The translations under genes were made by a program, and so were the position numbers. Below are positions 2,212-22,599 of a stretch of 22,642 bases of DNA, piece after piece (position 1 is the first letter of the stretch; each line of letters begins with the position of its first letter). The notes beneath the pieces are model-generated. The model had not been told where the DNA came from. It did no database searches and saw nothing but the letters and a program-made list of their open reading frames with translations. This DNA is from a virus: positions 1 to 22,642 of the IMG/VR virus record IMGVR_UViG_3300034272_001403. The stretch is one strand, 5' to 3'.

Positions 2212-3027
2212 ATGAAACTTTCAGAGTGCATAATCGTATCTAAAGAAATTAAAGATAAGTTTATCCTAGCTAAAAATAGAGATAGAGCTTATAATCCATC
2301 TTTAGAAATCGTACATACTATCATTGATGGTGTGGAAGTTGCATATCTACATGATTTGATAACTGATTGGAGTGAGGGTTTAAATGAAAACGGAATAGGC
2401 GTTGTAAACTCAGCACTATTAGTTGGACACGATGAAGCTGAAGCTAAGCTTGTAAAAAAAGCTGGTAAACCTGGACCTGATGGTGATAAGATGAGAAACA
2501 TCATTAAGCAACCTACTCTAATAGATGCAGTAAGAGCTGCACTATCATATAAGGGTAAGAGTGGGTTAGCTCTTAAAGGTCATACATTTGTATCATCTAC
2601 AAAACATATGGTTAGTATTGAAACTACATCAAAGCATAAGCCGGATGTTAAACTTCAAAACTCCGAATCACCTGTTGTTCGTACAAACCACGGACATATG
2701 TTCACCGATGCCGGATATACACATGGTGAGAAATATCTAAGTTCAAAGATGAGAAAGATATCAGCAGAAAAATCAGTTGATAAAGTAGAAGATTGGAAAG
2801 AAATAGCACAAGCTATGAGAAAGGAATACTTTCCAAAGAGACCGGCTCTTAATATGAAAAGAGATACGGAAGAAATGTCTACATCATCTCAAACTGTAAT
2901 GAACCTAACGGATAAGGTATTACAAATAACTTACTTTAAAGGTAAGGTAAACGAATTCAAAGGTATTAATAGACAATTGCCTGAAGGATATCAACCAAAG
3001 ATTACAATTGAAGTAATCCCAGTTTAA
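2212..3027 (+). CDS. Ntn-hydrolase-like enzyme (penicillin acylase / C45 AAT / NRDE type)
   Basis: This 271-aa protein carries the ordered hallmarks of the Cys Ntn-hydrolases that cleave amide bonds (bile-salt hydrolase, penicillin V acylase, acyl-CoA:6-APA acyltransferase). These are a candidate nucleophile Cys6; a K-N-R-D segment at 21-24, in the place of the family's R-N-x-D, with Asp24 18 residues after the Cys; a GLNENGIGVVN segment at 56-66 like the family's G-x-N-E-x-G block; and TNHG at 158-161. No secretion signal is present. In this superfamily the Cys must become N-terminal, here by removing the five-residue leader MKLSE. The gene starts immediately after the upstream stop. Substrate is unknown: acyl amides such as N-acyl amino acids, signal molecules or peptides are possible. 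Superfamily assignment is moderately secure; the activity is inferred. Confidence 0.7.
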   Translation: MKLSECIIVSKEIKDKFILAKNRDRAYNPSLEIVHTIIDGVEVAYLHDLITDWSEGLNENGIGVVNSALLVGHDEAEAKLVKKAGKPGPDGDKMRNIIKQPTLIDAVRAALSYKGKSGLALKGHTFVSSTKHMVSIETTSKHKPDVKLQNSESPVVRTNHGHMFTDAGYTHGEKYLSSKMRKISAEKSVDKVEDWKEIAQAMRKEYFPKRPALNMKRDTEEMSTSSQTVMNLTDKVLQITYFKGKVNEFKGINRQLPEGYQPKITIEVIPV

Positions 3028-3477: not shown

Positions 3478-4686
3478 ATGGGAGATATAATGTCACCGCA
3501 AATAGCATCATCAAATAATTTAAATTCAAATTATCAAAATGAAGATAAATTTAAAACAGACATTGGTATTGTATATGATGTTGTTTTAGATGAAACTGGC
3601 GGAAATGGAGATATTGAAACAATAGGAGCTGTTAAATTTAGATTTAACAATGATACGATTACACCAAATAATTCTTTACAATATGCACTTCCATATGATA
3701 AAAATTTTGTTACGCTTCCTGTAAAAAATGAACAAGTTCATATAATAAAAAATGGATTGGGGTATTATTATCAAAGAATACAACCAGACCAAACGCCTAA
3801 CAATAGTGCATTTATAAATCAAATATCTTTTAAATTTGAAAATACTAAAAATTCAAATATATCTGAAACTAATAATATTGAAAATTATAGAAAAGTTGAA
3901 ATCCATAAAACACCAATATCAAATAAAAAAGTATCTAACGATTATGATAAGCTTGGAAAGTATTTTACTTATACAAATGGTATTCATAAAATAAAATTAT
4001 ACGAAGGTGATACTACAATTCAATCTAGATTTGGACAATCTTTGAGATTTTCGGCTTACAATAATAATAAAAATACATTTTCTCCAACAATAATATTGAG
4101 AAACTCCGAAGCTCCAACAAACCAAACTAAACAATTTAATGTTACTGTAGAAGAAGATATTAATAAAGATGGTAGTGTTTTGGTAATGGCATCCAATCAA
4201 TATCAATTACCATTTGCAAGTACAAATATAACCAAACCAGATTCTTTTACAGATTATCCTGATAAATTAATTGGAGACCAAATACTTTTAAATTCTGGTA
4301 GACTTATATTTTCTGCAAAAAGTGGAGAAATTATATTTCATTCAAAAAGGAATTATGGGTTTATATCAGATGGTGGGATGTCAATTGATAATAAAGGTGG
4401 AATTGATGTTAGTGTTAATGACAATATTAATATTGATACAAATGGAAGGGATGTTTTATTTAAGACAGGAAATGGTGCAATATTTTTAGGTGATAATAAT
4501 TTAGAACCATTAGTAAAGGGAAACGAATTGAAAAAAATATTTGAAGAACTCATAATAGCTATTTTATCTCAAACATTTAAAACACCATCTGGACCAACAG
4601 CAGTAGGACCTGAAAATTTTAACGATTTTATTGCAATATCTGATAAATTAGCAAATATGATGAGTAAAACAAATCAAACATCTTAA
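3478..4686 (+). CDS. 5: Baseplate hub / central spike protein, gp5-like without lysozyme domain
   Basis: In this 402-aa protein, residues about 26-102 form an OB-fold-like domain as at the N-terminus of T4 gp5 and related spike proteins: the opening GIVYDVV, a strand carrying GAVKFRF, then PVKNEQVHIIKNG. Residues about 267-347 are short beta repeats (LLNSGRLIFSAKSGEIIF, GIDVSVNDNINIDTNG) typical of the triple-stranded spike helix. A helical tail (about 350-402) follows. T4 gp5 (575 aa) carries a lysozyme domain between these parts; here I see no lysozyme catalytic motif. Two enzymes are instead encoded shortly downstream. ATG at 3478 is preferred because it gives the TAATATG junction repeated at the next two genes; ATG at 3490 is an alternative. 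It would act at the tip of the tail tube. Confidence 0.75.
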   Translation: MGDIMSPQIASSNNLNSNYQNEDKFKTDIGIVYDVVLDETGGNGDIETIGAVKFRFNNDTITPNNSLQYALPYDKNFVTLPVKNEQVHIIKNGLGYYYQRIQPDQTPNNSAFINQISFKFENTKNSNISETNNIENYRKVEIHKTPISNKKVSNDYDKLGKYFTYTNGIHKIKLYEGDTTIQSRFGQSLRFSAYNNNKNTFSPTIILRNSEAPTNQTKQFNVTVEEDINKDGSVLVMASNQYQLPFASTNITKPDSFTDYPDKLIGDQILLNSGRLIFSAKSGEIIFHSKRNYGFISDGGMSIDNKGGIDVSVNDNINIDTNGRDVLFKTGNGAIFLGDNNLEPLVKGNELKKIFEELIIAILSQTFKTPSGPTAVGPENFNDFIAISDKLANMMSKTNQTS

Positions 4687-4687
4687 T

Positions 4688-5266
4688 ATGGAAAATTTAA
4701 CAAATGCAGCTCAAGGGTTAGCATCATCGGCAACTAATTTAGCACAAGGTGCAGTGTCATCAGCAACTAATTTAGCACAAGGTGCAATTAGTTCAATACC
4801 GGGAGCAGCTAATGTGGATGCTGTAAGAAATGCATTAAAAGGATTAGAAAATGGAGCAGTTGACCCAAAAGCTTTATTAGCTAGTTTGAAATCAAAATTA
4901 CCAATACCTCCAAATCTTCCTGAAATTCCTAAAAAACCAAATTTAAAAGTTTTAAAGTTTAAAGCAAAAGCGGCATTGTTTCAACTGAAGCCTAAAAAAA
5001 TGCCAAAAACTAAAAAGGAAAAAATATTAGAAAAGAAAAAACTAAAAGGGTTTGCAAATCAATTAAATTCTGCAAAAGAATCAGTACTTAATGCAAAAAA
5101 CCAAGCAGAAGCTCTTGCATCTAAAGCTAAAGGATTAGCATCACAGGCACAAGGTTTAGCATCGCAAGCACAAGGTTTAGCATCAAACGCACAAGGTGCA
5201 ATATCAAATTTACAATCACAAGCACAAAACTCGGTTTCTAATATTGCAAATAAAATAGGAGGATAA
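4688..5266 (+). CDS. Ala-rich heptad-repeat protein in hub cluster (unknown)
   Basis: This 192-aa, Ala/Ser/Gln-rich protein has two 11-residue repeats near the N-terminus (SSATNLAQGA, residues about 13-33), a Pro-rich basic middle (about 70-125, with several PKKP/KPKK clusters), and four consecutive heptads (ALASKAK, GLASQAQ twice, GLASNAQ, about residues 142-169) before a Gly-Gly end. This indicates elongated amphipathic helices, probably coiled coils, joined by a basic extended segment. It sits one base after the gp5-like gene and one base before the SGNH gene, so it is probably a hub component, plug or chaperone. No family is recognised. Confidence 0.75.
   Translation: MENLTNAAQGLASSATNLAQGAVSSATNLAQGAISSIPGAANVDAVRNALKGLENGAVDPKALLASLKSKLPIPPNLPEIPKKPNLKVLKFKAKAALFQLKPKKMPKTKKEKILEKKKLKGFANQLNSAKESVLNAKNQAEALASKAKGLASQAQGLASQAQGLASNAQGAISNLQSQAQNSVSNIANKIGG
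4724..4786 (+). repeat. Tandem 33-base coding repeat, two copies
   Basis: The 30 bases at 4724-4753 recur at 4757-4786 with one difference (CGG versus CAG context). Period 33 encodes an 11-residue hendecad. Near identity suggests a recent tandem duplication. Confidence 0.85.
5111..5194 (+). repeat. Tandem 21-base coding repeat, four heptads
   Basis: Four in-frame 21-base units start at 5111, 5132, 5153 and 5174. They encode ALASKAK, GLASQAQ, GLASQAQ and GLASNAQ. The last three are closely similar at DNA level, consistent with slippage-type expansion of a coiled-coil segment. Confidence 0.85.
5254..5264 (+). promoter_or_regulatory. Shine-Dalgarno-like AGGAGG before the SGNH gene
   Basis: AGGAGGATA lies just before the ATG at 5268, the only strong Shine-Dalgarno match I saw at a gene start in the window; other starts are preceded by A-rich sequence. 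It also encodes the last two Gly codons of the upstream protein, so it could be coincidental. Confidence 0.4.
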
Positions 5267-5267
5267 T

Positions 5268-6365
5268 ATGTCTTGGGAAATATTTAGAAAAAATATATTA
5301 AATATTGCACTTAGACCGGAAAATGTCAATAATACTGACCTTATAGCAAAAGCATACGCTAGAGAATATGATTTAGCGGTTAAGAGAGGAGGTGATGTTG
5401 TAAATAAAGTACCATTACAAAAAGGAAATATTAAAGCTATGGAAGCATATTTCAAAAAAGCTTTAGATAATGGACTTAACTATAATGAAAAATATGATTT
5501 AGTTGGTGAAATGGGAAAGGGTGTAATTGCATATTGGAGTACTCAACAAGCACCAACACCACTACTGCCGGAAAATCAACCACCCCCAACTGCAATACAA
5601 ATGAATCGTTTTCCAATACCATTAGTAACAATAGAACAATTGGTAAGTGGAGTTACGGCTAATATTGTGGTTAATTCAAATATAGTAACAAATCCCGGAA
5701 AATGGATTAAACCATTAGCGGCTATAAATAATAATCAACAAGCAAACAATAATACAGCAAGAGGTGGTAGTGGTAGTACTGCACAGCCATTGGAAGCAAG
5801 TACAACTGAAAAAATACTGTTTGTAGGAGATTCCATATCAGCAATACAAACCCCAACCGGTGAAATGGTAAGTTGGACATATCCAGCACAAGTTAAAAAA
5901 TCATTACCAAATGCAGTTGTTGATGTATTGGCAATTGGGGGTAAACAAACATCATGGATGTTACAAAATTTACCAAATCAATTAGCAACTACTAAATATA
6001 ATAGAGTTTACATATATGGGGGTACTAATGATATATTTTCTCAAATACCAATAAAAACAGTATTAAGTAATATACAAAAAATGGTTGATTTGGCAGTTTC
6101 AAATGGAGCTAAAGCATATGTTATACTTGGATACAGCACACAAAATATGGATTATACTAAAATGCCAACAACTTCATATGTAAGAAATAAAGTTGATTAT
6201 ATTCCTATGATAGAAAATTATAAAAAATATCAAGAATCAATTCCAACTACAATTACTAATGCACAATTTATAGGAATATTTGATATCGGAACATTAAGTG
6301 ATGGATTTCATCCAAGTGGAGCTCAAGCTAGACAAATTGCAAATATAATAATAAACGCTTTATAA
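5268..6365 (+). CDS. SGNH/GDSL-family hydrolase fused to hub-associated N-terminal domain
   Basis: This 365-aa protein has two parts. Residues 1-165 are a helical domain followed by a Pro/Asn-rich linker ending in a Gly-Ser stretch. Residues about 182-365 are a complete SGNH hydrolase: block I G187-D188-S189 (nucleophile Ser), block II Gly224 in IGG, block III G252-T253-N254-D255, and block V D345-G-F-H348. The family removes acyl groups from polysaccharides, peptidoglycan or lipids. In a baseplate hub cluster, a role in deacetylating surface glycan or peptidoglycan during entry is likely. No signal peptide is present, fitting a virion-borne enzyme. It starts one base after the heptad-repeat gene and overlaps the next gene by one base (TAATG). 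Enzyme-family assignment is strong; the substrate is inferred. Confidence 0.85.
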   Translation: MSWEIFRKNILNIALRPENVNNTDLIAKAYAREYDLAVKRGGDVVNKVPLQKGNIKAMEAYFKKALDNGLNYNEKYDLVGEMGKGVIAYWSTQQAPTPLLPENQPPPTAIQMNRFPIPLVTIEQLVSGVTANIVVNSNIVTNPGKWIKPLAAINNNQQANNNTARGGSGSTAQPLEASTTEKILFVGDSISAIQTPTGEMVSWTYPAQVKKSLPNAVVDVLAIGGKQTSWMLQNLPNQLATTKYNRVYIYGGTNDIFSQIPIKTVLSNIQKMVDLAVSNGAKAYVILGYSTQNMDYTKMPTTSYVRNKVDYIPMIENYKKYQESIPTTITNAQFIGIFDIGTLSDGFHPSGAQARQIANIIINAL

Positions 6366-7225
6366 TGTCGTATGTAGACCCAAATAGTAATCCAATATTA
6401 TTAGTAGATGACTTCATACGATATGCAAAAGCTCATTTACTAACTGTGTCTGGACAGGCATCGGTTCTATCTACATACCAACCACCACTACCACCCGCAC
6501 CAAGCATATGTAGATGGACTGGATATAGAATTCCAGATGTAGCATCTCCTTCGGTAGATAGTTTAACGGGTAAAACAAATTTTCAATCAGATGCTTTAGT
6601 TACCCGTGATAGGTTTACCGAAGATGTTGATTTGGAACTTGAATATAGACCAAATTTTGCTCCAAATAAATATAGTAGACCGGATGGTACTAGTGATGAT
6701 AATACAGAAAGAACATTACAAACCAGTTTTGTAGCTAGTAATACCGATGCTAAAGCAGCTGCTGAAACATATTTAGGTAGAGCTTTATCTGATAGTGAGT
6801 GGAATAGTTTAGTTTCATTAACATTTGCAGAATCTACAACAAATCAGACTGAAAGAGCTTGGGTTATGGCAACTATATTAAATAGAACTAGAATTGGTTA
6901 TACGCCTGCTGGACCTAGAAATTCAAGATTTAAATTTGCAACACTAACGGATATAATTACACAGCCATTTCAATATCAACCAATTACTGGTACAAGATTT
7001 AATCCCGGTCCTGCTCCTTCTTTCATAAATGGACCTGGTGCAAAGGATGCAAATTCAATATATGGGGCAGCTGCACAATTATTAAAAGATGTACCAAAAG
7101 AGTATATTAATTTCACATCAAATAATCCAGCTGCTTATAAAGCAGGTACAAATATTAATTATTTATATCAATTAAGGGCAAATCCAAATTCTAAAGTACT
7201 TGGAGGTACAATTTTTGCATATTAG
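6365..7225 (+). CDS. SleB-like cell-wall hydrolase (baseplate-associated)
   Basis: In this 286-aa protein, residues 1-120 are a Pro-rich, non-catalytic region. Residues about 130-286 resemble the Hydrolase_2 / SleB family of peptidoglycan lytic enzymes: candidate catalytic Glu156 in LTFAES, then ERAWVMATILNR (163-174) matching the family's A-x-V-x-x-N-R helix, then a QPFQY segment (200-204) matching its Q-x-x-Q-F signature. SleB enzymes cut glycan strands. It overlaps the SGNH gene by one base and closes the hub operon. Together they could replace the lysozyme domain missing from the gp5-like protein, with Glu156 cutting the wall locally at entry. A lysis role is less likely because there is no signal peptide and no holin-like neighbour. 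A gap of 75 bases follows. Confidence 0.72.
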   Translation: MSYVDPNSNPILLVDDFIRYAKAHLLTVSGQASVLSTYQPPLPPAPSICRWTGYRIPDVASPSVDSLTGKTNFQSDALVTRDRFTEDVDLELEYRPNFAPNKYSRPDGTSDDNTERTLQTSFVASNTDAKAAAETYLGRALSDSEWNSLVSLTFAESTTNQTERAWVMATILNRTRIGYTPAGPRNSRFKFATLTDIITQPFQYQPITGTRFNPGPAPSFINGPGAKDANSIYGAAAQLLKDVPKEYINFTSNNPAAYKAGTNINYLYQLRANPNSKVLGGTIFAY

Positions 7226-7300: not shown

Positions 7301-7801
7301 ATGGACATGGATAAACTATTAGAAGCCATTCAAATTCTTATTAAAGAGGAGCTTAAAGAGCAATTACCTGCTTTAATTAAGGAAGGTGTGAAGGCTGAAA
7401 TGAAAAAAATGCTATCTGAAACAAAAGTAGCACCAAAACCACAATCAAAGGGTATTTCAATGGCTAAGGCTATTTTAGGAGATGAACCAATTCAAGAATC
7501 AGTTCAAACTAAATCAGTACCAACAAAGCAATATAGCAAAAACCCAATGATTAATCAAATCCTAAATGAAACAAGAGGTGGAATACCACAAGGTGATGGT
7601 GGATTTAGAACAATGAATTTTGGACAAGGTGATATGGGTTCAATTGTAGGTGGAACTGCATTAGCTGAAAAAATGGGGTATAGTGATATGGCTAAAGGAC
7701 CTCAACCAACTGGATTGGGTGTAAACACTGGAGTAGCTGAAATAGATAAAGCATTGAATAGAGATTATTCAGAACTTGTAAAAAGATTTAAAAAGAAGTA
7801 A
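7301..7801 (+). CDS. Unknown 166-aa protein heading the wedge operon
   Basis: The N-terminal 45 residues form a charged amphipathic helix (for example LLEAIQILIKEELKEQLPALI), probably a coiled coil. The middle is low-complexity and Gly/Gln-rich (about 95-125), and the C-terminus is basic, ending KRFKKK. There is no membrane segment or signal peptide. It is the first gene after a promoter-like motif and overlaps gp25 by one base (TAATG). T4 has gp53 beside gp25-type wedge genes, but I see no LysM or other gp53 feature, so I do not assign it. A wedge assembly factor or small structural protein is possible. ATG at 7307 is an alternative start. Confidence 0.75.
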   Translation: MDMDKLLEAIQILIKEELKEQLPALIKEGVKAEMKKMLSETKVAPKPQSKGISMAKAILGDEPIQESVQTKSVPTKQYSKNPMINQILNETRGGIPQGDGGFRTMNFGQGDMGSIVGGTALAEKMGYSDMAKGPQPTGLGVNTGVAEIDKALNRDYSELVKRFKKK

Positions 7802-8232
7802 TGGCAGTAGTATTAGGAACATATATAGTAAATAGTTCAACTGAACAATTAAATGATTATGCGATAGGATTATCATTGCCACTACAAATGACATCTAATA
7901 CTTTTAACCAAACATATGATAATTTAGTACAATTAAAATCAAATGTAAGAAATTTACTTTTAACTAAAAAAGGAGAAAGAATCGGCCAACCCAATTTTGG
8001 TACTAATTTACATAGATTATTATTTGAACCAAATGATGATAGTCTTGAAGATAAAATATTCCAAGCGGTAGATTCTGCCATTAGACTTTGGCTACCTCAA
8101 TTGAGCATTAATGAGATAAATATAGAAGCAACAGATGAAATGAAAGATTTAAATGAAGTATCTGTCAGTATTACATTTACAGCTAATTATAATAGTCAAA
8201 GTTTTAAAGTAGATTTTAATATAAACGGATAA
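7801..8232 (+). CDS. 25: Baseplate wedge protein gp25 (GPW/gp25 family)
   Basis: This 143-aa protein is near the usual length (T4 gp25 is 132 aa). Residues 48-77 carry the family signature: N-V-R-N-L-L-L-T, then G-E-R (58-60), P64, F-G (66-67) and L-F-E-P (74-77). gp25 clamps the (gp6)2-gp7 wedge near the tail tube and joins the sheath initiation complex in contractile machines; the equivalent is W in phage P2. Its position directly before gp6 matches the wedge gene order of contractile phages. Start and end are set by the TAATG overlap upstream and a three-base gap to gp6. Confidence 0.93.
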   Translation: MAVVLGTYIVNSSTEQLNDYAIGLSLPLQMTSNTFNQTYDNLVQLKSNVRNLLLTKKGERIGQPNFGTNLHRLLFEPNDDSLEDKIFQAVDSAIRLWLPQLSINEINIEATDEMKDLNEVSVSITFTANYNSQSFKVDFNING

Positions 8233-8235
8233 CAT

Positions 8236-10272
8236 ATGGCACTTAATAATACAAATACAAATTTTAAAAATAAAGGAAAGGATATAAAATACCTTAATAA
8301 AGATTTTAATGCTTTTAAGGAAAATTTAATTGAATTCGCAAAAACATATTTTCCAAAAACATATAACGATTTTAGTGAGGCATCTCCTGGTACTATGTTT
8401 ATCGAAATGGCATCTTATGTAGGAGATACTTTATCTTATTATATAGATGATACATTTAAGCAATCATTGATGTTATATGCAGATGATATGCAAAGTATAA
8501 TACCATTAGCTAGATACTTAGGATATAAACCAAAAGTAACTGCACCAGCTGTAACAAAATTATCTGTATATCAATTAGTTCCTTCAATTGGGGTAAGTGC
8601 AAATAATATGCCTGATTCAAAATATTATATTAGGATTAAGGCTGGGATGCATGCTCGTTCATCTGTAAATAGTATAAATTTTATAACGAAAGATATTGTA
8701 GATTTTTCAGATGAAAATAATAGAGAAATTACAGTTTACGAAAGAGATAATCAAACGGGAGAACCAACTTATTATCTTGTAAAAAAGTATGTAGATGCAA
8801 CTGCAGGTACTGTTGTAACTAAATCATATGAATTTGATTCGTATTCACCATATCAAAGAATTGAGTTACCTGAAGATAATATAATAGAAATATTAGATTG
8901 TAGAGATTCAAATAATAATAAATGGTATGAAGTTCCATATTTAGCACAAGAAATGGTTTTCATTGAACAGCCAAATACTGAAGCAAACGATCCTGATTTA
9001 TATCAATTTAAATCAACCATTCCATTTATATTAAAAACATTAAAAACACCAAGAAGATTTGTAACTAGTATAAATGGCGATAGAACCACTACTTTACAAT
9101 TTGGAGCTGGCGATTCAACTGCATCTGATGAACAACTAATTCCAAATCTAAAAAATGTTGGATTGGGATTACCAAATTCTATTAGTAGATTAGAAGAATC
9201 ATTTGACCCTACCAATTTCTTAAAAACAAAAACATATGGTACATCGCCTGCAAATACAACAATTTCTGTTAAATATTTAATAGGTGGTGGTATTATATCA
9301 AATGTACCGGCAAATTCTATAACTACAATAGATAGTATTGAATTTGATGAAGATACAAGTTACTTCAATACACAGCAATTATCTTTATATATTAGAATGA
9401 AAGATTCAATTGCAATAGATAACGAAATTCCAGCAACTGGTGGTAGAAGTGGTGATAGTATAAATGAAATAAGAGAAAATGCATTAGCAAATTTTTCCGC
9501 ACAAAATAGAGCAGTAACTGCAAAAGATTATCAAGTTAGAGCATTATCAATGCCTTCAAAATTTGGAGCAATTGCAAAAGCATATGCAACTGCAGATGGT
9601 ACACTGGATAATAATTCCCCATCATCTATATTAGCATCTCCTAATCATTTGCAAGAATTTACCGATTTGGTGATGAGTTTTGTTAATAACCCTGATGCAT
9701 TAGAACCATCTCAAGCTGAAGTAAAAGAACAAATAACAAAATTTTTAGTTGGAAAAACTTCTAATGAAAATGAAAAGAACAATCCATTTGCAATAAATTT
9801 ATATTTGTTAGCATATGATGTAAATGGTAATATGACAAATATTAACAGAGCAGTTAAAGAAAATCTCAAAACATATTTAAATGAATACAAAATATTAACA
9901 GATGGTGTTAATATGCTAGATGGATTTGTTATTAATATTGGAATTGATTTTGAAATTATATGTTATCCAAACTATAATAAAAGTGAGATATTAATACAAT
10001 GTATAAGTTCCCTAAGAGATTATTTTTCGATAGATAATATGACATTTAATCAAACAATAAATTTGAGCGAAATTGAATTATTATTAGCTAATATTGAAGG
10101 AGTATCATCTGTACCAATGTTAAAAATAACAAATAAATGTGGTGGTAATTATGCACCTCATTCTTATAATATAGATGCAGCAACTAAAGATAAGATTGTA
10201 TATCCATCTTTAGACCCATCGGTTTTTGAAATAAAGTTTCCAGATTCAGATATTAAAGGTAGAGTAAGATAA
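8236..10272 (+). CDS. 6: Baseplate wedge protein gp6-like (baseplate J family)
   Basis: This 678-aa protein is close to T4 gp6 (660 aa). The N-terminal block at residues 46-90 (including FIEMASYVGDTLSYYID and a LARYLGYKP segment) is typical of gp6-like wedge proteins. Residues about 420-450 hold a J-type block (NRAVTAKDYQVRALSM followed by FGAIAKAYA). The C-terminal third has the beta/helix domains expected for dimer contact (about 540-640). gp6 forms the iris ring of the baseplate and reorganises on sheath contraction. It follows gp25 by three bases and overlaps the next gene by one base (TAATG). I saw no internal stop or frameshift. Confidence 0.9.
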   Translation: MALNNTNTNFKNKGKDIKYLNKDFNAFKENLIEFAKTYFPKTYNDFSEASPGTMFIEMASYVGDTLSYYIDDTFKQSLMLYADDMQSIIPLARYLGYKPKVTAPAVTKLSVYQLVPSIGVSANNMPDSKYYIRIKAGMHARSSVNSINFITKDIVDFSDENNREITVYERDNQTGEPTYYLVKKYVDATAGTVVTKSYEFDSYSPYQRIELPEDNIIEILDCRDSNNNKWYEVPYLAQEMVFIEQPNTEANDPDLYQFKSTIPFILKTLKTPRRFVTSINGDRTTTLQFGAGDSTASDEQLIPNLKNVGLGLPNSISRLEESFDPTNFLKTKTYGTSPANTTISVKYLIGGGIISNVPANSITTIDSIEFDEDTSYFNTQQLSLYIRMKDSIAIDNEIPATGGRSGDSINEIRENALANFSAQNRAVTAKDYQVRALSMPSKFGAIAKAYATADGTLDNNSPSSILASPNHLQEFTDLVMSFVNNPDALEPSQAEVKEQITKFLVGKTSNENEKNNPFAINLYLLAYDVNGNMTNINRAVKENLKTYLNEYKILTDGVNMLDGFVINIGIDFEIICYPNYNKSEILIQCISSLRDYFSIDNMTFNQTINLSEIELLLANIEGVSSVPMLKITNKCGGNYAPHSYNIDAATKDKIVYPSLDPSVFEIKFPDSDIKGRVR

Positions 10273-22188: not shown

Positions 22189-22599
22189 ATGAGTTGGAAA
22201 TTTAATGGAAATATTGTTACAGAAGAAACCACACCTGAAGGTGCGATTGGATTTGTCTATAAGATAGTTGATATTAGAACTAATAGATTTTATATAGGAA
22301 AGAAATCCTTATCTCAAACCCGCAGATTGAAACCCTTAAAAGGAAAGACTCGTAAAAGAGTTGTAAAGAAAGCATCTGATTGGGAAAAATACTATTCATC
22401 AAACGAATGGATTAAATCAGAAATAAAAGCTGGAAACGCTGAATATTTCGAAAGAGAAATCATTCAATTTTGTTTTTCAAAGAAATCCTTATCATATTAC
22501 GAAATTAAATGGCAATTTCATTACGATGTCCTTGCCAACGAACAAGCAATAAACGAAAACCTTATGGGGAAGTTCTTCCGTAGGGATATTATAAATTAA
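22189..22599 (+). CDS. GIY-YIG nuclease-like protein
   Basis: In this 136-aa protein a GFVYKI strand (residues 21-26) is followed 11 residues later by YIGKKS (35-40), the spacing of a GIY-YIG domain with Val replacing Ile in the first motif. Conserved-type Arg residues (45-46) follow, then a basic loop, a DWEKYYSS segment (64-71), a candidate metal-binding Glu in YFEREI (86-91), and NENLMGKFFRRD toward the end. GIY-YIG enzymes cut DNA as homing, repair or host-degrading endonucleases. There is no intron or intein next to it and no added DNA-binding domain, so homing is not evident. It precedes an HTH gene by four bases, suggesting a DNA-processing or packaging-related role. Confidence 0.72.
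   Translation: MSWKFNGNIVTEETTPEGAIGFVYKIVDIRTNRFYIGKKSLSQTRRLKPLKGKTRKRVVKKASDWEKYYSSNEWIKSEIKAGNAEYFEREIIQFCFSKKSLSYYEIKWQFHYDVLANEQAINENLMGKFFRRDIIN

Follow-up and report, generated by a model that had tools for sequence, protein, structure and literature searches.

The SGNH and SleB-like genes of the 22.6-kb window (the whole stretch of DNA analyzed here) probably encode the halves of a formerly single adaptor of ∼182 aa that lies beside the tail spike, and the two halves would display two envelope enzymes; we put the probability of this reading at about two in three. Judged by sequence alignment and profile comparison, the N-terminus of each protein is one half of an adaptor that relatives encode unsplit. 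The window is a fragment of a T4-like contractile-tailed phage with the baseplate genes gp25 and gp6 on board. Ahead of gp25, in 5' to 3' order, it encodes proteins of 402 aa (spike position), 192 aa (helical), 365 aa (SGNH), 286 aa (SleB-like) and 166 aa (Table 1). The window gp6 is 40-42% identical to its counterparts in Microcystis phage Mel-JY01 and the uncultured phage LR756508 (38-42% when Flavobacterium phage immuto is added). A preliminary description of this region had placed both enzymes in a one-base-spaced operon. One base indeed separates each of the first three genes (402-, 192-, and 365-aa), but at the SGNH/SleB junction the stop codon and the ATG overlap by 1 base. The SGNH and SleB-like genes were found in the same order in at least 12 further contigs, so their pairing is not due to chance, and the slot keeps its position among relatives, between the spike-like gene and gp25/gp6.

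Table 1. Genes and domains of the enzyme slot and the adjoining baseplate genes, in window coordinates.
Feature	Position	Strand	Basis or remark
Spike-like (gp5-position) baseplate protein, 402 aa, without lysozyme domain	3478..4686	+	gp5 by position and character only
Helical/coiled-coil protein, 192 aa	4688..5266	+	seen with both split types (SGNH+SleB, M15+SleB)
SGNH protein, 365 aa (half A of the adaptor, then linker and hydrolase)	5268..6365	+
Adaptor half A, residues 1-149	5268..5714	+	corresponds to residues 1-127 of the 182-aa adaptor of relatives (pairwise alignment, profile)
SGNH/GDSL hydrolase domain, ∼residues 182-365	5811..6362	+	PF13472 E = 2e-12; invariant residues
SleB-like protein, 286 aa (half B of the adaptor, then linker and hydrolase)	6365..7225	+
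Adaptor half B, residues 4-58	6374..6538	+	corresponds to residues 128-182 of the unsplit protein (alignment, profile)
SleB-like hydrolase domain, ∼residues 119-286	6719..7222	+	invariant Glu156; PF07486 matches of homologues
Conserved 166-aa protein, closes the variable slot	7301..7801	+	follows the slot in nearly all relatives
gp25 baseplate wedge protein	7801..8232	+	PF04965 1.6e-13; phrog_261 6.5e-21
gp6-like baseplate wedge protein	8236..10272	+	phrog_219 1.8e-16

Two further genes of the window lie outside this slot. A 271-aa protein encoded 5' of the baseplate genes (2212-3027) has, by eye, the look of an Ntn-hydrolase/acyltransferase and gave no PHROG match. A 136-aa protein (22189-22599) matched phrog_447, named NAD synthetase, at 2.4e-31, with weaker matches to homing-endonuclease families; the NAD synthetase name looks doubtful for this protein.

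All ORFs of 106 loci were searched with the window proteins. Many relatives encode, at the same slot, one protein that holds both N-termini in order, the shortest being 182 aa, and the two window proteins align to consecutive parts of it (Table 1). An independent profile was made from 27 unsplit proteins only, with the window proteins excluded. Model positions 1-135 of this profile were covered by the window SGNH protein (1.6e-28) and positions 130-186 by the window SleB-like protein (1.2e-16); a protein of the outgroup LR756508, absent from the profile, was matched as well (9e-5). The halves tile the adaptor model end to end, gapless, in 11 split loci. All residues that are invariant in the unsplit proteins (13/13) are kept across the window pair, and the exceptions at other loci are single residues. 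AlphaFold modeled the unsplit adaptor confidently (pLDDT 88, pTM 0.84), with the split site in a loop at ∼120-133, between a strand ending at 119 and a helix starting at 134. The non-catalytic N-terminal domains, previously described as suited to docking, are by this alignment and profile the two halves of the single adaptor of relatives. A sequencing frameshift behind the split was ruled out by the complete enzyme domain between the halves and by recurrence in a dozen contigs. The unsplit state of distant groups and of LR756508 suggests that the split is the derived state. A separate second fission in the same inter-domain region is seen at L072:3414-4969 and L074:9123-10678, where the helical insert is broken into two ORFs.

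The adaptor gave no significant match to Pfam, PHROG, or PDB sequences. No PDB fold reached E ≤ 0.001 in a search with the adaptor model (the best VIA Z was 2.1), a result that leaves room for distant kinship. T4 gp53, gp5.1, and gp5.4 were rejected as identities of the adaptor after comparison of the profile with the single T4 sequences gave nothing, which likewise leaves room for distant kinship. By tblastn the adaptor was not detectable in named phage records; LR756508 was the sole exception, by profile. Fold matches to the unsplit adaptor in BFVD were A0A6J5MBZ8 (TM 0.95), A0A6J7WU27 (0.57), and A0A8S5RUZ0 (0.57), proteins of uncultured phages with the same or a similar fold, which carry no annotation and are silent on function. 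Since there is no match of known function, the adaptor is placed in the baseplate by gene order.

The 402-aa protein is gp5-like by position and character only, namely its gene order and a C-terminal half rich in repeats. When its profile was compared with T4 gp5, nothing was found (hhalign probability 0.4%). PHROG matches among the 22 spike-like proteins were weak: 'baseplate assembly protein' in 7/22 (best 0.0024) and 'hub and tail lysozyme' in 1/22 (0.049). The reported lack of a T4 lysozyme domain in this protein was borne out, with 0 Pfam families matching the window protein at E ≤ 1 and the lysozyme model absent from all 22 spike-like proteins examined by family search. The homologues align over their full length, and the sole unaccounted part is a variable linker of ∼55 residues (roughly residues 110-165), which leaves no space for a lysozyme of ∼125-150 aa. 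A cryptic lysozyme in the 402-aa protein was looked for and is ruled out by the absence of family matches in the 22 homologues together with the lack of space. Because 22/22 homologues lack lysozyme, there is no sign that the spike family ever had one. We concluded that the observation of the preliminary description is confirmed and its interpretation partly supported: a lytic function 'split off' from the spike is not supported, and it is the adaptor that split.

The SGNH domain is clearly a member of PF13472 (48.4 bits, above the curated cut-off of 32.9; E = 2e-12), with predicted esterase activity. The block I GDS serine, the conserved Gly and Asn, and the block V DxxH were all found, and G187-D188-S189, G251-G252-x-N254, and D345-G-x-H348 are invariant across nine SGNH homologues. 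Its PDB neighbors are generic esterases of the lipase/acetylhydrolase type (best 7.9e-7, the rest weaker). Candidate substrates could be acylated peptidoglycan, surface polysaccharide or lipid.

Catalytic motifs that look complete had been noted for both enzymes; this holds for the SGNH domain, and the evidence for a SleB-like domain is weaker. In the window, the SleB-like protein matched neither PF07486 (Hydrolase_2/SleB-CwlJ; curated cut-off 27 bits) nor, significantly, any other family. PF07486 was matched by 10/13 SleB-like homologues (best 1.9e-5) and by four of five unrelated large proteins with the same domain (2.6e-4 to 8.5e-3; 17-22 bits). In an alignment of the SleB-like domains with one another, Glu156, the candidate catalytic glutamate, is invariant in 17/17; the LNR segment (N173, R174) is also invariant. 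The window copy is predicted to be a divergent SleB-like hydrolase. Its AlphaFold model is poor (pLDDT 38), and searches of PDB sequences and bacterial genomes with the domain confirmed relatives in neither. The domain likely acts on the cell wall, since every cargo identified in relatives is a hydrolase of peptidoglycan type. Phage SleB-like enzymes have been termed amidases (PMC7344957), which makes the earlier term 'glycan cleaver' an assumption.

A SleB-like domain 48-52% identical to that of the window also ends large proteins of otherwise unrelated phages (L019:4155-8477, L022:3888-8516, and L025:6060-8516). These proteins reach 1441-1543 aa, and L018, L021, L023, and L024 also carry the domain. 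In L022 the gene directly upstream encodes a 101-aa baseplate wedge/LysM-type protein (phrog_7145); fusion of the domain to large proteins beside such a gene points to the tail tip.

Several other enzymes were found on the adaptor. Besides SGNH and SleB-like domains, Pfam identified M15 (L016, 4e-10), M23 (L029, 7e-6), GH24 lysozyme (L036, 1e-11), CHAP (L040, 5.6e-10), and GH19 (L096, 1e-4, just under the cut-off). The remaining relatives have a helical insert at the A/B loop, a C-terminal helical extension, or none, and in many relatives the adaptor has no recognized enzyme. Cargo changed between close relatives. L037 (M23) and L036 (GH24) are 93% identical in the spike, 78% in the adaptor, and 89% in the 166-aa protein. 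L038 (no cargo) and L040 (CHAP) share 97% in both spike and gp6 and 80% in the adaptor, and L093 (a cargo without family match) and L096 (GH19) share 89% in the spike and 97% in gp25. In L016 and L017 an M15 peptidase stands in place of the SGNH domain and the SleB-like partner is kept, at 66% identity between the window and L016. By these sequence comparisons, the slot holds a carrier whose enzymes can be exchanged, while its flanking genes remain as much as 97% identical. A quick 66-row tree built from the genes for the spike, the 166-aa protein, gp25, and gp6 requires no fewer than 14 changes of architecture; the tree has one long-branch join, so that the count serves as a guide. The clade of the window has nine rows, and its sister group comprises the M15+SleB phages and unsplit M23 and GH24 phages; the unsplit ones may have lost the SleB-like cargo, or this cargo may have been gained twice. 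When nine longer relative contigs (fragments) were searched for lysozyme or M23 elsewhere, only the adaptor-borne M23 was found.

Among the relatives, L086:2986-5010 encodes a 675-aa adaptor whose helical insert holds an extra domain of ∼180-200 residues with no significant family match. L088:9796-10692 (also L089, L090, L093, and L094) has, where L096 has GH19, a C-terminal cargo of ∼300 aa that matched neither Pfam nor PHROG; this cargo is possibly an unrecognized wall hydrolase. The 192-aa helical protein occurs only with the split adaptor. It and its equivalents are fast-changing, with Ala/Gln repeat units whose number varies among close relatives (192 vs. 199 aa). That this coiled-coil protein is the relocated helical insert was ruled out by hhalign, as it is unrelated to the inserts of relatives.

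In the arrangement that we favor, half A would bear the SGNH acyl-esterase and half B the SleB-like cell-wall hydrolase, and the permissive cargo sites of the adaptor would be the inter-half loop (∼120-133) and the C-terminus. Within the virion the two halves most probably rejoin, which would give two enzymes per adaptor position at the tail tip. Upon sheath contraction the enzymes would loosen the envelope locally, and the spike and tube would pass. The retained invariant residues, and the position of the split in a loop of the model, suggest that the halves come together again. Action at entry is expected because the enzymes are fused to a protein of the baseplate operon and are not placed with a holin. 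The tiling of the halves, the conserved adaptor residues, the catalytic motifs, the gene position and the cargo exchange are observed; that the proteins are in the virion, that the halves pair, and that the enzymes are active and work at entry is inferred. The further proposition, that fission in the inter-domain loop turned a one-enzyme holder of an unrecognized adaptor family into a self-assembling two-part holder with two envelope enzymes at the same tail-tip point, has in our estimate an even chance of being correct.

The order in which the envelope would be attacked can be read in more than one way. The preliminary description proposed a dedicated two-step wall-entry pair, in which the SGNH enzyme de-O-acetylates peptidoglycan and the SleB-like enzyme then cuts the glycan. 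The two domains co-occur in every SGNH split locus, and an M15 peptidase domain can fill the SGNH position, which suggests a position facing peptidoglycan. The same M15 replacement (L016/L017), however, indicates that the SleB-like enzyme needs no esterase partner, and the PDB matches of the SGNH domain are to generic esterases. We consider the two-step scheme unlikely in this dedicated form; it is one of several options, possible and not favored over the alternatives. Alternatively, the SGNH enzyme may act ahead of the wall, on acylated surface polysaccharide or outer-membrane lipid, with only the SleB-like enzyme attacking peptidoglycan. In phage tails, SGNH esterases often serve to deacetylate polysaccharides (for example PMC8471582, PMC9569702), and the closest PDB matches of the window domain are of the lipase/acetylhydrolase type. 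Those known deacetylases, however, are tail-fiber or spike enzymes, whereas the carrier here is a baseplate adaptor, and the identified adaptor cargos of relatives are all of peptidoglycan type. We regard action ahead of the wall as a real possibility, somewhat short of an even chance.

Encoding by separate genes would also be consistent with halves that no longer meet, each docking by itself, as a tag, at its own site on the baseplate. Full retention of the invariant residues in the window pair, the location of the split in a modeled loop, and the constant adjacency and order of the two genes all argue against such tags, which we consider quite improbable. It is very improbable that the SleB-like protein is a lysis endolysin instead of an entry enzyme. 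In Vequintavirinae, SleB-like genes beside a putative holin are the proposed lysis genes (PMC7344957), and phrog_938 ('endolysin') matches two SleB-like members. The window protein, however, bears half of a baseplate adaptor, its gene sits between the spike and gp25 genes, and the same slot in relatives holds other wall hydrolases. Re-paired halves that hold both enzymes at the tail tip are the arrangement that we prefer over independent tags and a lysis function.

Phage-tail enzymes are well known and are usually a fixed part of one protein. Close relatives that swap wall enzymes on one carrier, while the baseplate stays nearly constant, allow the question of how the drilling tool of a phage is fitted to the host. 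A natural split of the carrier would show a virion gaining a second enzyme without a second docking site, and the split carrier would offer a natural pattern for putting chosen enzymes on tail particles. In the open-licence literature we found no description of the adaptor family, of enzyme exchange on it, or of a natural split giving two enzymes.

T4 gp5 has its lysozyme (GH24) built into the spike polypeptide, mid-chain (PMC3004832). In both systems a wall hydrolase, predicted in the case of the window, belongs with the spike in the hub operon and lies close to gp6; in the window, however, the spike has no enzyme and a separate adaptor carries exchangeable ones, with no sequence similarity detected between the two systems. 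In phage CBB and RaK2-like phages, the lysozyme-domain proteins CBB_238-240 adjoin gp25 and a gp5-like protein (PMC5259590), similarly within the baseplate cluster. A split adaptor was not described there, and the CBB gp5-like protein still ends in a lysozyme domain. In the Vequintavirinae, CB7_83 has a distant Hydrolase_2/SleB-type domain (PMC7344957) and lies beside the putative holin (lysis), whereas the window domain is fused to half of a baseplate adaptor. Microcystis phage Mel-JY01 (PP395634) has a GH19 'putative chitinase' between the spike-like gene and gp25, but the adaptor profile did not match this protein. The modularity of virion-associated lysins is established (PMC8310338). Those lysins have modular catalytic domains on structural proteins, and gene position and cargo exchange support a like arrangement in the present system; the difference is that here one adaptor family has two cargo sites, several enzyme exchanges, and a fission that would give two enzymes. 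What is new here is the adaptor family, the case-by-case enzyme exchange on it, and the natural split that yields two enzymes.
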